From positions 1 through 64,000 of the forward strand of contig JAHBYL010000003.1 of assembly GCA_019635955.1 (NCBI GenBank): 64,000 nt of DNA. The letters run 5' to 3'. How positions within the stretch are numbered: the stretch's first letter is position 1; each line of letters begins with the position of its first letter. Below are positions 30,129-38,634 of the stretch, piece after piece. Origin of the DNA: Parvibaculum sp. GTDB lineage: Bacteria > Pseudomonadota > Alphaproteobacteria > Parvibaculales > Parvibaculaceae. The position numbers and the translations under genes are program-made. The notes beneath the pieces are model-generated. The model did no database searches. It worked only from the letters and a program-made list of their open reading frames with translations, and had not been told where the DNA came from.

Positions 30129-30431
30129 ATGAAAGACGGCAAGGACGAGGAGCGGGGCGAGATTCTGCTCGATGTGATCGGTCAGCAATGCCCGCTGCCC
30201 GTGCTGCGGGCGCGAAAGAGATTGCTGCGCCTTGAGGCCGGAGCGTTGCTCCGCGTTTTCGCGAGCGATCCGGTGGCGCGGATCGACATGCCGCATTTTT
30301 GCGCCGAAGCGGGCCACGAACTCGTCGAGGTCCGCGACCGCGGCACATGGATTGAATTCCTGATCCGCCGGGGCAATGCCGTGGTTGAGACCGAGGACGA
30401 CCTTCTCGCCAAGCCCGTAAAGAGCCTCTAG
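30129..30431 (+). CDS. TusA/YedF-like sulfurtransferase domain protein
   Basis: A 100-residue protein with the CPLPV motif (Cys21) that carries persulfide sulfur in TusA proteins. The fold pattern LDVIGQQCPLPVLRAR and DPVARIDMPHFCAEAGHELVE is standard. It may deliver sulfur for cofactor or tRNA thiolation, but no partner genes are adjacent. Its TAG stop shares CTAG with the stop of the convergent GNAT gene. Confidence 0.9.
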   Translation: MKDGKDEERGEILLDVIGQQCPLPVLRARKRLLRLEAGALLRVFASDPVARIDMPHFCAEAGHELVEVRDRGTWIEFLIRRGNAVVETEDDLLAKPVKSL

Positions 30432-31024
30432 AACGCGAACTCCTCGGCAAGGACGGCGTAGAGATATTCGTCCCGCCAGGCATCCTGGATGTATTTGCTG
30501 CGCCGGAAGGCGCCCTCGCGCCGCATGCCGAGCTTTTCCAGAACGCGGGCCGAAGCCTTGTTGCGCTGGTCGCAGGTCGCAACGATGCGCTGCAGCCCGA
30601 GATCGTGAAACGCCGCCGCCATCACCGCATGCGCGGCTTCCGCCGCGTAGCCGGCACCCCAGAATTCAGGATGCAGGACATAACCGATCTCTGCGGTGCG
30701 ATTGTCCCAATCGACGAGCTTGAGCCCGACGGCCCCGATCAGCCGTCGCTTCTCACCGCGTTTTCGGATCTGCTTCTGCACAATGGCAAGATCGAAATTC
30801 GTTCGTTGCTTGTCTTTCTGATCATCCAGAAAGGCGCGGACCGACTGCTTGCTCTGCTCGGCCGTGTTCGGCCCCCAAATCAGGAACTGGGTCACCTCCG
30901 GCAGCGACGAATAGGCATGGACGGAGTCCACGTCATTAGCGGCAAATTCACGGATCAGAAGGCGCGCCGTTTCGAGCGGAAGGGCAATCGAAGGCGCGAG
31001 CTCCGCCCGCTTGCCCCGTCTCAT
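30428..31024 (-). CDS. GNAT-family N-acetyltransferase (RimJ/RimL type)
   Basis: A 198-residue acetyltransferase. It begins with the RimJ/L-like LPLETARLLIREF. The acetyl-CoA region is HPEFWGAGYAAEAAHAV, and the late IVATCDQRNKASARVLEKLG is diagnostic. It acts on a protein N-terminus or a small amine; the target is unknown. Its ATG overlaps the stop of the upstream ArsC-like gene (ATGA), so the two are co-translated. Confidence 0.92.
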   Translation of the reverse strand: MRRGKRAELAPSIALPLETARLLIREFAANDVDSVHAYSSLPEVTQFLIWGPNTAEQSKQSVRAFLDDQKDKQRTNFDLAIVQKQIRKRGEKRRLIGAVGLKLVDWDNRTAEIGYVLHPEFWGAGYAAEAAHAVMAAAFHDLGLQRIVATCDQRNKASARVLEKLGMRREGAFRRSKYIQDAWRDEYLYAVLAEEFAF

Positions 31025-31377
31025 TTTGCGAAGGCCTTGCGAATGGCGGGCAGCTGCGCCTCCCGAAAGCCGGAGATCACGGCCTTGCCATTGTCGAAGA
31101 CAGGACGCTTGATCAATGCGGGATGGGTCGCCATGAGTTTGACGGCCTTCGCCTCGGTGAGCCCTGCCTTTTCGCTATCGGCAAGCCCGCGCCAGGTGGT
31201 GCTCGATTTGTTTAGCAGCGCTTCCCAGCCCACGGCAGCAGCAAGGCGTTTCACTTCCGCGCCGGAAATGCCCTCCGCTTTCAGATCGTGGAAACGATGC
31301 GCGATCCCTTCCGCCTCGAGCCATTTCACGGCTTTGCGGCAAGTATCGCAATTCTTCAATCCGTAGAGAGTGAACAC
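31021..31377 (-). CDS. ArsC/Spx-family (YffB-like) thioredoxin-fold protein
   Basis: A 118-residue protein with a thioredoxin-like fold. NCDTCRKAVKWL gives Cys10-x-x-Cys13 at the start of helix 1. NKSSTTWRGL and LIKRPVFDNG are the usual ArsC-family elements. True arsenate reductase function is doubtful, because this YffB-like branch has no known arsenate role. The start is GTG 31377, since no ATG fits the first strand. It is joined to the GNAT gene by a 4-base overlap. Confidence 0.88.
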   Translation of the reverse strand: MFTLYGLKNCDTCRKAVKWLEAEGIAHRFHDLKAEGISGAEVKRLAAAVGWEALLNKSSTTWRGLADSEKAGLTEAKAVKLMATHPALIKRPVFDNGKAVISGFREAQLPAIRKAFAK

Positions 31378-31457: not shown

Positions 31458-32261
31458 TCAGGCGGCCTGCTTCTGCATCTGTTCGGCGCGCATGGCCTTG
31501 AAGGCCTGTTCGGCGGCAGTCGCCACCGGTTCCGCTTCACGATAGGCAGCGGGCGTTGCGATACCGAGTTCGGCGCGAACCTGCGCAAGCGGCTTTTCGA
31601 GCATGGCTTCCCAGTCGGTCGCGGGCAGCCAGGCGGCCTTCTTGCCGTTCCGGTAGGCCTCGCGAATGACGCGCCAGATCTTGACCTCGGGCAGGCTCTT
31701 CGCCGTCACGCGGGCACCGACAAGCACGATGAAGCCGATACCGCGATTGCGCGTCTGCGCATAGGTGAAGGCAAGCAGCGCGAGCTCTCCGAGCCCGTCG
31801 CGGCCATAACCGGACACGACGTGCCAGAGGTCGTGCTGGTCGCGCAGACGTGCGCCGAAAAGAAGTTCGTCCTCGGAACGCAGGTCGATGCGCTCCACAG
31901 CCTCGCTCGCCGCCACAAGCCCGTCGGCGGTGAGGTCTTCCTCGGCCATGAATTCATGATAGGTGCGGCCGAGCGTGCCCGCCGGAAGCGCAGAAAGCCG
32001 CGCCCGGTCGCTGAGGGCGGCTATGAGATCGCGCTTTTCGGCCAGGATGCGGCGGCCCGTGTCCGTCTGCACGAAGCGCCGGAAGCCCCTACCCACAGAA
32101 TCGCCCGAAAGCGCGTCGATGATCTTGAAAACCTGGGACGTGTCTTCCTTGTCCGCGATAAGGGCGCGGATCGCGCGGATCGCCTTGAGGGGCTGCATGC
32201 GCTTGCGCGCAGGCTTCGCCGGAGCGGCACTGCGAAACTCGGTTGGGCTTGCTGTCGTCAT
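31458..32261 (-). CDS. coq4: Coq4-family ubiquinone biosynthesis protein
   Basis: A 267-residue Coq4-family protein. The metal-binding HDLWH (His143, Asp144, His147) in RDQHDLWHVVSGYG is the family hallmark. In yeast and human, Coq4 organises the ubiquinone complex and takes part in C1 decarboxylation and hydroxylation of the ring; a similar role is inferred here. The protein is soluble or membrane-associated without a signal peptide. It is divergent from a TetR gene, with a TTGACA-type promoter whose spacer is an operator-like palindrome. coq7 lies 6 kb away. Confidence 0.88.
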   Translation of the reverse strand: MTTASPTEFRSAAPAKPARKRMQPLKAIRAIRALIADKEDTSQVFKIIDALSGDSVGRGFRRFVQTDTGRRILAEKRDLIAALSDRARLSALPAGTLGRTYHEFMAEEDLTADGLVAASEAVERIDLRSEDELLFGARLRDQHDLWHVVSGYGRDGLGELALLAFTYAQTRNRGIGFIVLVGARVTAKSLPEVKIWRVIREAYRNGKKAAWLPATDWEAMLEKPLAQVRAELGIATPAAYREAEPVATAAEQAFKAMRAEQMQKQAA

Positions 32262-32312
32262 CGGCTATGTCCCGTTGTTATAGTGGCGGCTTCAGCCCCG
32301 CGCCTGTATCCG

Positions 32313-32344
32313 AACATATATAGGCGTACTTACATGTTTGTCAA
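32313..32344 (-). promoter_or_regulatory. coq4 promoter with palindromic TetR operator in its spacer
   Basis: On the minus strand, TTGACA (32344-32339) is followed after 16 bases by TATATA (32322-32317). The predicted start is near 32310, about 50 bases before the coq4 ATG. The half-sites AACATATA (32313-32320) and TACATGTT (32331-32338) are inverted repeats with one mismatch, separated by 10 bases. They fill the space between and over the core elements. Confidence 0.62.
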
Positions 32345-32371
32345 TATACCCTCCCCGGGAAGGATCCGAGA

Positions 32372-33040
32372 GTGTCGAGCGCCGTGAAACCCGAGACCTC
32401 CACCGCCGCAAAGCCCGCTGCGAAGCGGATACGCCGCACAGCGGAGGAGGCAAGGCGGCTGATCCTCGACGCGGCCGAAGCCCGGCTCGCCCGCCAGGGC
32501 CCCGAGGGACTGCGGCTTCAGGATATCGCCAGGGATGTGGGCATTTCCCACCCCGCGATTCTCCACCATTTCGAGAGCCGGGAAGGCCTTGTGCGTGCCT
32601 TGATCGGCCGGGCGAACAGGCAGCTCCGGGACAAGCTGCTCTCGGCGCTGGATGGCGACGGAGACGGGGAAGGCAGCGACACGGCCTATCACATCGGCCA
32701 TGTCTTCGAGGCGCTGAGCGACCGCGGCACGGCGCGGCTTCTGTCCTGGCTGCTGCTGACTGGACGCGCGAGCGACGAGCAGATGGAGCCCAATGTGATG
32801 CGCGAGATCGTGGACGCCATTCAGGCGCGCCGCGAGGACTATGCCCGGCAGGAAAACCAGCCCGCACCCGACCGCGAGGACACGCTGTTTATTGCCATGC
32901 TGACGGCGAGCGCCGCCTTCGGCGAGGCGATCGTCGGACGGCAGCTTGCGGAAGCGGCGGGCCTCGACCGGGACGGGCTCGCCCGCTTCCGCCTCTGGTT
33001 TGCCCGGATGATCAACGACCACCTCGACACCGGCAAGTGA
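32372..33040 (+). CDS. TetR-family transcriptional regulator (divergent from coq4)
   Basis: A 222-residue TetR protein. The helix-turn-helix LQDIARDVGISHPAILHHFE lies at about residues 49-68, after a basic N-terminus with AKRIRRTAEEARR. The 110-base divergent gap to coq4 holds a 26-base operator-like palindrome, so this regulator probably controls coq4 and itself. GGAAGGATCCGAG precedes the ATG. The ligand is unknown; a quinone precursor or fatty acid would make sense. Confidence 0.92.
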   Translation: MSSAVKPETSTAAKPAAKRIRRTAEEARRLILDAAEARLARQGPEGLRLQDIARDVGISHPAILHHFESREGLVRALIGRANRQLRDKLLSALDGDGDGEGSDTAYHIGHVFEALSDRGTARLLSWLLLTGRASDEQMEPNVMREIVDAIQARREDYARQENQPAPDREDTLFIAMLTASAAFGEAIVGRQLAEAAGLDRDGLARFRLWFARMINDHLDTGK

Positions 33041-33712
33041 TCAGCCGGTCTTCCGCCGGATCAGATCGCGCATCAGCCCGACGAGTTTTTCGGACGAGAT
33101 TTCCGGCCGCAGCACCCGCGCGACCATCACCCCGTCGAGAAAGACGGAGACGAGTTCGGCAAGATCATGCGCCTCGCGAAGCGACGCGCCTTCCTCGCGA
33201 AGCGCATGGCCGATCAGGTCCGTTTCCGTATCGTAGAAGCGCCGGATCGCTTCATCCGTCTGTGCCGAGCGCTGGCCGGAATGCGCGTAGTCGAGGATCA
33301 CTTTCAGGAAGCGTGTGATCTCCCCGAAGAGCTGAAGATTGCTTGTGAGCCAGGCATCGAGATCGCCGATGCCGCCTTCGCGCTTCTTGATGTCCTCATA
33401 GGCCGCGAGCGCATCCGACAGCGCCTTGCGTACGACGAACTGGAAAAGATCGTCCTTGTCCTCGAAATAATAATAGATGAGCGCCGGATTGATGCCGGCC
33501 GCCTCGCCGAGTTCCTTGTTGGAGACGGCGGCAACGCCCGAACGCGAAAAGAGCTTGAGCGCCGCCTCGGCAATCGCATCGCGCTTTGCCTCATTCGGCT
33601 GTTCGACAGGCGGACGCCCCGGCTTGCGCGCCTGCGTAGCGCGGGAGGCACCTTTCGCTTTCATGTCTTTCGCGGACTTTTTCTTCTCTTTTGCCGCGCT
33701 CTTTGCCGCCAC
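33041..33712 (-). CDS. TetR-family transcriptional regulator (last gene of GS/creatininase operon)
   Basis: A 223-residue TetR protein with a lysine-rich N-terminal tail (AKEKKKSAKDMKAKG) and GRPP before the DNA-binding domain. The helix-turn-helix is NKELGEAAGINPALIYYYFE. I take GTG 33712 as the start because it lies 13 bases after the creatininase-like stop, with AGGG just upstream. The frame continues further up but would overlap that gene by more than 100 bases. It probably regulates its own operon through the 28-bp palindrome at 36572-36599. Confidence 0.88.
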   Translation of the reverse strand: MAAKSAAKEKKKSAKDMKAKGASRATQARKPGRPPVEQPNEAKRDAIAEAALKLFSRSGVAAVSNKELGEAAGINPALIYYYFEDKDDLFQFVVRKALSDALAAYEDIKKREGGIGDLDAWLTSNLQLFGEITRFLKVILDYAHSGQRSAQTDEAIRRFYDTETDLIGHALREEGASLREAHDLAELVSVFLDGVMVARVLRPEISSEKLVGLMRDLIRRKTG

Positions 33713-33725
33713 CGCTATCCACCCT

Positions 33726-34475
33726 TCACCGCTTCGGGATTGCCGGCCATTCCTCCGTTTCGGCTGCTTCCAGCAACTTCTCGAAATCGGCAATGATCCG
33801 GTCGAGCATTTCGCGGCCGAGTTTAGCAGAGGATTCGCTCGGCCGCCCCACCACACCATTGGGCGTCACGGCGGGCATGGCATAGCGCCAAATCTTGCCG
33901 ACAGTGACGTCCTCGACGTCTTCCGCCCGGTCCATCTGCACCCATTCAGGATCGATCGCGAGCACCATGGATGTTTCGGCGACATTGGCATGAATATCGG
34001 CCGCATCGAGCGTATAGAGCCGCAGCGCTTCCGCCGAGATATCCCAGAGGCCCCGCGTTGCAAAGCGCATATCGGGATGTTCATAGCGCAGCCGCAGAAT
34101 CGCGCTTTCGATGCTCGGTCCGTTGGTTGCATGGCCGGAGATGAAGAGCAGACGGTCGATCCCCGTGGTGCGGATCGCCCAGTCCGCCACCTCGCAGAGA
34201 ACGCTCGCGAGCGTTTCCGGCGAAAGCGAAATCGTGCCCGGCCAGGCATCGGAATGGCCGAACGAGCAGCCATAGGGGATGGCCGGCAGGAGAAGCACGT
34301 TGCGGCGCCGGCAAGCTTCGCCGCAAATCGTTTCCGCGAGCAGCGTGTCCGTACCCGTGGCGAGATGCGGCCCATGTTGCTCCGTCGCCCCGATGGGCAG
34401 GACCGCCATGCGGCGGCCCTGCCCTTCCACGAGATCGCCGATTTGCGGCGCGGTGAGTTTTGCCCAGGAGGTCAT
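33726..34475 (-). CDS. creatininase-family amidohydrolase
   Basis: A 249-residue protein of the creatininase/MftE family. The metal site starts PIGATEQHGPHLATGTD (Glu, His, Asp ligands) and continues with YGCSFGHSD and SGHATNG. Members cleave cyclic or peptide-like amide bonds with two metal ions. It is 9 bases after a type III glutamine-synthetase-like gene and 13 bases before a TetR gene. A pairing of a glutamyl ligase with an amidohydrolase suggests an amine-processing route, which is inference. Confidence 0.9.
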   Translation of the reverse strand: MTSWAKLTAPQIGDLVEGQGRRMAVLPIGATEQHGPHLATGTDTLLAETICGEACRRRNVLLLPAIPYGCSFGHSDAWPGTISLSPETLASVLCEVADWAIRTTGIDRLLFISGHATNGPSIESAILRLRYEHPDMRFATRGLWDISAEALRLYTLDAADIHANVAETSMVLAIDPEWVQMDRAEDVEDVTVGKIWRYAMPAVTPNGVVGRPSESSAKLGREMLDRIIADFEKLLEAAETEEWPAIPKR

Positions 34476-37522: not shown

Positions 37523-38050
37523 ATGCTGGACCGCCTGCCTTCGAATGCCATTCCTTGGATCCTGCTCGCCGCGAGCGCCGCGACGATCGGCGGCGCGCTC
37601 TTTTTCGAGCATGTGCTGGGCTACATCCCCTGCGCGCTCTGCCTCGATGGCCGCCAGCCGCATTACTACGCCATGGGAGCGGCGCTCATCGCGGGCATTC
37701 TCTCGCGCAATACGAATATCGGCATTCTGGTGCTGATCTTCCTCGGCATCTGCACGGCGCTTTATCTATGGGGTGCCGGCATCTCGTTCCATCACATGGG
37801 CGTCGAATATGGCTGGTGGGCGGGGCCGGAGGATTGCGGCGCCATCGGCGGCAGCGTCGCGGGCTCACTGCAGGACCTGCAATCGGCGCTCGAACGCGGC
37901 GTGAAGGCGCCGCGCTGCGACGAGGCTGCATGGACGCTTTTCGGCATCTCGCTCGCGGGATTCAATTTTCTGATCACCCTGACGCTTGCAGCCCTTTCCG
38001 CGCTGCCTCTCTGGCGCTATTTCCGGGAGAGCAGAGGAGAAGTGGCATGA
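37523..38050 (+). CDS. dsbB: DsbB-family disulfide bond formation protein
   Basis: A 175-residue inner-membrane protein with four hydrophobic segments. The first periplasmic pair is Cys37-x-x-Cys40 (PCALC), and a second pair is Cys105 and Cys132, as expected for quinone-linked reoxidation of DsbA. ATG 37523 (MLDRLPSN) is chosen because the longer frame adds a polar stretch that would spoil the first membrane segment. Its TGA overlaps the ATG of coq7 (ATGA), linking a quinone user with a quinone biosynthesis gene. Confidence 0.9.
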   Translation: MLDRLPSNAIPWILLAASAATIGGALFFEHVLGYIPCALCLDGRQPHYYAMGAALIAGILSRNTNIGILVLIFLGICTALYLWGAGISFHHMGVEYGWWAGPEDCGAIGGSVAGSLQDLQSALERGVKAPRCDEAAWTLFGISLAGFNFLITLTLAALSALPLWRYFRESRGEVA

Positions 38051-38634
38051 GCGCATCGGGCGAAAACGCCGCTTCCCGCGTCTCCGCCCAGCCGGGCCGT
38101 GCGCGCAAGGAAGCGATCGAGGAAATGATCCGCGTCGACCACGCGGGCGAATATGGCGCGGTGCGAATCTATGCGGGCCAGCTCGCCGTGTTGCGCAATG
38201 TGCCGGGCAAGGAAGAGCTTGTCGCGAAGCTCGAACACATGGCGAAGGATGAGGAGGTGCACCTCGCCCGTTTCAACGAGATCGTGAACGAGCGCGGCGT
38301 GCGCCCGACGGCTTTTGCGCCCGTCTGGCATGTGGCGGGTTTCGCGCTCGGCGCGGCGACGGCGCTGCTCGGCGAAAAAGCCGCCCATGCCTGCACCGCG
38401 GCCGTGGAAGAAGTGATCGACGAGCACTACCAGTCGCAAGTGCGCCGCCTCGATGAGATGGGCGAGACGGAACAGCCGCTGCGCGACACGATCGAGAAAT
38501 TCCGCCTCGAAGAAGTCGAGCATCGCGACGAGGCCATCGCCTCCGGCGCGAAGGAAGCCCCCGCCTATCCGCTTCTGTCTGGCGCGATCAAGGCCGCCTG
38601 CCGGATTGCCATCAGGATTTCCGAAAAGGCCTGA
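38047..38634 (+). CDS. coq7: demethoxyubiquinone hydroxylase Coq7
   Basis: A 195-residue di-iron hydroxylase that converts demethoxyubiquinone to the hydroxylated intermediate of ubiquinone. The iron ligands are Glu35 (HAGEYGA), Glu69 and His72 (EEVH), then Glu in AAVEEVIDEHY and the EEVEHRDEA motif near residue 160. The two halves repeat, as in all Coq7 proteins. It is translationally coupled to dsbB and convergent with an HNH nuclease gene two bases after its stop. Confidence 0.95.
   Translation: MSASGENAASRVSAQPGRARKEAIEEMIRVDHAGEYGAVRIYAGQLAVLRNVPGKEELVAKLEHMAKDEEVHLARFNEIVNERGVRPTAFAPVWHVAGFALGAATALLGEKAAHACTAAVEEVIDEHYQSQVRRLDEMGETEQPLRDTIEKFRLEEVEHRDEAIASGAKEAPAYPLLSGAIKAACRIAIRISEKA

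Follow-up and report, generated by a model that had tools for sequence, protein, structure and literature searches.

The window analyzed here, a stretch of 64,000 nucleotides of DNA from Parvibaculum sp., contains a 110-bp gap (32262-32371) that separates coq4 (ATG at 32261, minus strand) from a divergent tetR gene (GTG at 32372, plus strand; Table 1). The genome is a draft of 86.8% completeness. Profile searches confirmed the gene families named in the original prediction: the coq4 product belongs to PF05019 (Coq4; E 1.4e-23, 83.8 bits against a cut-off of 22.9) and the tetR product carries the helix-turn-helix domain PF00440 (TetR_N; E 4.2e-12, 46.1 bits against a cut-off of 24). In the Coq4 protein the HDxxH-x11-E motif, described as the COQ4 zinc/metal motif in an excerpt of PMC7615680, is intact. 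The TetR protein is predicted to adopt the all-helical TetR fold, including the C-terminal ligand domain, with nine helices (mean pLDDT 78.9, pTM 0.64; prediction only). Foldseek matches of this model include RutR, FasR and EthR at E about 1e-4, a likeness at the family level only, and the ligand can therefore not be read from the fold. When the protein was compared with NCBIfam equivalogs (PsrA, FasR, BetI, RutR and others), none reached its cut-off and all 11 families listed lay far below. The stretch SHPAILHHF is invariant across the 32 rows of TetR alignment A2, many of which had been found using HPAILHHF, one of six search seeds. We presume that this TetR is ligand-responsive and autoregulated.

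Table 1. Features of the coq4-tetR region, with positions in the window.
Feature	Position	Strand	Basis or remark
coq4-family gene	31458-32261	-	267 aa; PF05019; metal motif HDxxH-x11-E (HDLWHVVSGYGRDGLGE)
First-proposed 26-bp palindrome, AACATATA-N10-TACATGTT	32313-32338		not conserved
coq4 -10 box TATATA, 16-nt spacer	32317-32322	-	sequence
Predicted operator TACTTACATGTTTGTCAATA, half-sites TACTTACA / TGTCAATA with N4 between	32327-32346		conservation
coq4 -35 box TTGACA	32339-32344	-	sequence; inside operator; 26 of 26 Parvibaculaceae gaps
Weak candidate tetR -10 TATACC	32345-32350	+	predicted; touches operator; no good -35
TetR-family regulator gene	32372-33040	+	222 aa; divergent from coq4

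Several further genes adjoin this pair. ArsC-family and GNAT genes (30428-31377, minus strand) follow coq4 in the same direction, and in several relatives without coq4 the tetR gene is directly divergent from an ArsC-like gene. On the other side, a second TetR-family gene (33041-33859, minus strand) lies tail to tail with the first and comes after creatininase- and glutamine-synthetase-like genes; the C-terminal half of its product is BetI-like at a score below the cut-off.

The coq4 promoter of the original prediction, TTGACA and TATATA separated by 16 nt on the minus strand, was found as claimed. The -10 box is loosely conserved, with three or four of the six consensus bases in all 26 Parvibaculaceae gaps aligned and a best spacing of mostly 17, and TATAAT stands at the place of the candidate tetR -10 in five of the loci (L011 and L013-L016). 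The operator had been placed at the half-sites AACATATA (32313-32320) and TACATGTT (32331-32338). Both exist and pair with one mismatch. They were said to cover the -10 box and the spacer exactly, yet the left half-site takes in four of the six -10 bases and the right one eight of the 16 spacer bases. When the gap was shuffled 2000 times with its dinucleotides preserved, 666 of the shuffles contained at least one equal inverted repeat (8 bp, at most one mismatch, spacer of 0-14). The pattern AACATRTA-N8..12-TAYATGTT had one match in the own genome, AACAT-N4..20-ATGTT was not found in the upstream stretches of relatives that were examined, and the nearest relative (L003, TetR 95-97% identical) carries ACCATATA in place of AACATATA. 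We rejected this palindrome as the operator because it is not conserved and is equalled so often by chance, and we read it as a chance overlap with the true operator, the predicted center of which lies about 11 bases away. An operator of the form AACATATA-N10-TACATGTT over the spacer and the -10 box, placing ubiquinone synthesis under ligand control, is thus highly improbable, even though its letters are present, both gene families are confirmed and the genome encodes ubiA and coq7: the repeat is confined to its own genome and an overlapping element is conserved instead.

Comparison of the gap among relatives indeed revealed a conserved palindrome over the coq4 promoter, at a site other than the one proposed. 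TetR orthologs with E below 1e-58 numbered 34. Of these strong orthologs, 26 adjoin a divergent coq4, seven have no coq4 at that place and one (L023) runs into a contig end. A 20-bp palindrome of the consensus TACT[G/T]ACA-N4-TGT[C/A]AGTA, most commonly in the form TACTGACA-N4-TGTCAATA, is present in all 26 gaps, none of which scores below 15 out of 16, and the flanks outside the operator are poorly conserved. In the window, the operator takes in the coq4 -35 box, extends over 12 of the 16 spacer bases and stops 4 bp short of the -10 box. It scores 16/16, while 5000 shuffles of the gap reach at most 14 (three of them), on a 16-point model with the half-site TA[CT]T[GT]ACA that was built after the relatives had been seen. 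This model was adopted because a looser pattern, TTGACAT-N3-TGTCAA with one mismatch, matched too many places, several of them in coding sequence (e.g. L176, L177). Candidate second sites were seen in L178/L179. A genus pattern of 18 fixed bases, allowing up to three mismatches, matched in 24 of 27 genus genomes; the misses were two assemblies of 71% (G005) and 57% (G020) completeness and one (G015) with tetR and coq4 at contig ends. Outside the tetR-coq4 gaps this pattern hit 10 places, each with three mismatches, and when read backwards as a control it gave two matches in all.

The element might be no more than a promoter, or might serve a different regulator, with the TetR gene only adjoining it. 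TTGACA is an ideal -35 sequence, kept in every one of the 26 gaps, and may be retained merely as a -35 box, but the second half-site, TGT[C/A]AGTA, has no promoter role that would explain its conservation. A candidate for another regulator is at hand in the second TetR gene at 33041-33859. Against this explanation, all seven tetR orthologs without an adjoining coq4 also lack the exact TGACA-N4-TGTCA beside tetR. The recognition helix is nevertheless unchanged in these seven, which counts against the main reading given below.

Loci in which regulator and target have come apart are informative in this respect. In genus g3, coq4 is no longer beside tetR and diverges from a flavin monooxygenase gene; two operators 33-34 bp apart precede it in all four such loci read (L160, L162, L166, L173), and one of them lies over a TTGACA-N17-TA[T/C]AAA promoter. 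In family f12, which may belong to Sphingomonadales to judge from the recF/dnaN neighbors of coq4, the best match to TetR profile A1 (alignment A1 leaves out L113, for which the stretch as entered contained a stop codon) is unlinked from coq4. An operator was found within 210 bp upstream of 10 of 15 of these TetR genes (L233, L234, L235, L237, L238, L239, L242, L243, L244, L245) and was absent upstream of five (L232, L236, L240, L241, L248). The unlinked coq4 of f12 genomes frequently carries the operator as well, and regulator and coq4 therefore share the site without being neighbors. Many f12 TetR genes diverge from a PF10118 gene (by Pfam run in L233, L172 and L174, otherwise judged by first residues). 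Several related TetR proteins may share this DNA motif, so that sites in trans cannot be assigned to one protein.

The palindromes before unlinked f12 TetR genes and before coq4 genes without an adjoining TetR speak against the site of an unrelated regulator and make the mere-promoter or other-regulator explanation improbable. Because the site is kept both where coq4 has left tetR and before unlinked tetR genes, control of coq4 and of itself by this TetR is well supported by comparison, and to judge from the sequences the divergent TetR very probably controls the coq4 promoter through the operator overlapping its -35 box and spacer. Thus the idea that TetR controls coq4 gained comparative support, while the half-sites named for it are not the operator.

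The same palindrome occurs in distant bacteria. When named genomes were scanned with the window TetR, 53 loci were found; HPAILHHF was among the seeds, and the set is therefore biased for the recognition helix, not for the neighboring gene. It includes 19 loci from Myxococcota, 'deltaproteobacteria' or similar hosts (L104-L122), eight of them with coq4 within the 3-kb flanks. The palindrome is present at seven of these eight, often as TACTTACA-N4-TGTAAGTA; the single miss (L122) has two sites scoring only 13/16. We also analyzed a phylum sample that was not chosen by TetR (397 genomes, 38 of them with PF05019; 30 loci from the search and 15 fetched by place). After removal of the window copy, 44 loci with 149,476 bases held 15 sites scoring at least 14, in 14 loci. 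All 15 are on the 5' side of a coq4, the one in L214 overlapping the start of the aligned coq4. Among spacers of 0-10 other than 4, only a spacer of 8 gave sites (three), and reversed half-sites gave none in this sample. A TetR homolog stands beside coq4 at only three of the site-bearing loci (L185, L186, L205). The 15 sites correspond to 15 of 43 coq4 genes, and the 28 of 43 without a site, like the five f12 TetR genes without one, count against the main reading given below. A quick Coq4 tree, with long branches, comprised 96 of the 98 rows, after removal of L188 as a duplicate and of L157 for lack of upstream sequence. In this tree the operator-bearing label falls on 52 rows, all within one of the two main branches (80 rows), with 11 changes.

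Genome searches revealed further genes behind the operator. The pattern TAYTKACA-N4-TGTMARTA, with up to one mismatch, matched in 39 of the 40 genomes searched, and the 11 f12 genomes held 39 places against none for the controls. Operator-like sites precede flavin monooxygenases (L289, L296 and L261, as well as L294, judged by first residues), P450s (L287, L292), acyl-CoA ligases (L284, L291) and an ABC-2 permease (L285); the L261 protein scores 650 bits with a Baeyer-Villiger-type model, below its cut-off of 1100. They also precede PF10118 genes ('predicted metal-dependent hydrolase'; L172, L174 and L233, with L279 and L280 assigned by look only), some of which adjoin a TetR of a second type. 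A PF10118-like gene with a perfect site in front of it is also found in G029 and G033, both of which lack PF05019. Some other operator-like places examined had no clear gene. The window genome has two operator places at up to one mismatch. The second (G000:C178:3256-3275; L296, L300) begins 106 bp upstream of a flavin monooxygenase gene. Counting this gene itself, 11 of its 24 closest genus relatives have a comparable site (scoring at least 13) in front of them, 10 of these at -94 to -106; none of its six paralogs does.

UbiD is the usual bacterial C1 decarboxylase of ubiquinone synthesis. We found it in the window genome (G000:C162, E 5.2e-155) and in 25 of 27 genus genomes, this one included; the match in G021 is partial and below the cut-off. 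Coq4 is thus not the only known means of the window genome for its ubiquinone step. The genome also has ubiA and coq7, and a whole-genome search with up to one mismatch found no operator at ubiA, ubiD or coq7. The coq7 gene (PF03232) lies within the window itself (37555-38634, plus strand), about 6 kb from coq4, and is without an operator. Moreover, the tetR-operator-coq4 module is not confined to ubiquinone makers: ubiquinone-type UbiA above the family cut-off was found in none of 15 Myxococcota/'delta' hosts, the assemblies of which may be incomplete, and in 14 of 14 Parvibaculaceae used as a control. The suggestion that ubiquinone synthesis is under ligand-controlled repression does not fit these data. 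Given the presence of UbiD, the lack of a site at the ubiquinone genes examined and the distant hosts without ubiquinone-type UbiA above the cut-off, we rejected a ubiquinone-gene regulon as the main reading.

A narrower role in ubiquinone synthesis has to be weighed: the operator at 32327-32346 might govern an alternative C1 decarboxylase that is switched on when UbiX/UbiD are insufficient. A conditional decarboxylase of this kind is possible because human COQ4 acts at C1 of ubiquinone, according to excerpts of PMC7615680 and PMC11495197, because Coq4 occurs without a UbiD match in two genus genomes (G004, G014), and because UbiD was found in none of eight g3-g5 genomes, five of which have PF05019. 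The intact metal motif of the window Coq4 would suit such an activity as well. Three nearly complete genomes (G029, G033, G036) have ubiquinone-type UbiA, with neither UbiD nor PF05019 found, which speaks against this role, as does the occurrence of the same module in distant hosts, none of 15 with a ubiquinone-type UbiA above the cut-off. Also, the genes that share the operator encode monooxygenases, P450s and acyl-CoA ligases, not ubi functions. On balance we consider an alternative C1 decarboxylase unlikely, though clearly less so than the mere-promoter or other-regulator explanation.

At the level of sequence, these data establish the palindrome with its position and conservation, and they tie it, across lineages, to both coq4 and the regulator gene, including cases in which these genes lie apart. 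From this we infer the events at the promoter. A TetR dimer would bind the palindrome at 32327-32346, where it would cover the coq4 -35 box as well as most of the spacer (12 of 16 bases) and touch the likely tetR -10, and would in this way repress both coq4 and tetR. RNA polymerase would be blocked at the coq4 -35 box; repression rather than activation is the presumed outcome, and autoregulation is presumed on the tetR side. A ligand is expected for a TetR-family protein, and a lipophilic one would release the repressor. The regulated function is most likely a conditional oxidative step on a lipid or a quinone-like compound rather than basal ubiquinone synthesis, because in relatives this site is found ahead of P450, acyl-CoA ligase, PF10118 and Baeyer-Villiger-type flavin monooxygenase genes, and elsewhere in the window genome ahead of a flavin monooxygenase gene. 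We assign this main reading, a TetR dimer at 32327-32346 that represses coq4 and itself until a lipophilic ligand releases it, with a likely function in oxidative lipid or quinone-like metabolism, a probability of roughly 80%.

We propose that coq4 is a core member of a lipophile-induced oxidative-lipid regulon. In its widest form the proposal is of a regulon of Alphaproteobacteria and Myxococcota-type bacteria, so far undescribed, in which TetR proteins recognizing TACTKACA-N4-TGTMAGTA control a non-ubiquinone Coq4-family enzyme, and with it P450s, acyl-CoA ligases, PF10118 proteins and Baeyer-Villiger-type monooxygenases, so that a lipophilic compound is turned over oxidatively. This wider version is tentative, with the odds slightly against it. 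A widely kept dedicated switch with a defined operator offers a route to the inducer and to the co-regulated enzymes, and hence to the substrate class of bacterial Coq4 proteins. If their function is not ubiquinone synthesis, many genomes carry a misleading annotation in the PF05019 label 'ubiquinone biosynthesis protein'.

In the open-access literature searched, no paper on a tetR-operator-coq4 module was among the matches listed, including those for TTACTTACA with TetR. We regard the module as a new regulon of an established type. It resembles divergent autoregulated TetR/AcrR repressors in its TetR_N domain, its divergent gene, its palindrome on the -35 box and spacer of the target and the site before the regulator gene. 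It differs from them in its Coq4-family target and its operator TACTKACA-N4-TGTMAGTA, neither of which is described among the literature matches listed. The fatty-acid degradation regulators PsrA and FadP are likewise TetR-family proteins, and some of the co-targets found here are acyl-CoA ligases and oxygenases. On the NCBIfam PsrA model the window TetR scores 21 bits against a cut-off of 300. The solved Coq4-family proteins Alr8543 (PDB 6e12) and 3msq match at E 4.6e-9 and 8.1e-6 and are distant in sequence; we know of no regulation for either. FadP is reported, in an excerpt of PMC5343134, to be unique to betaproteobacteria. Finally, mitochondrial COQ4 shares PF05019 and the HDxxH-x11-E motif with the window protein, whereas the bacterial coq4 is predicted to answer to a TetR of its own, and the genomes concerned either have UbiD as well or lack a ubiquinone-type UbiA above the cut-off.
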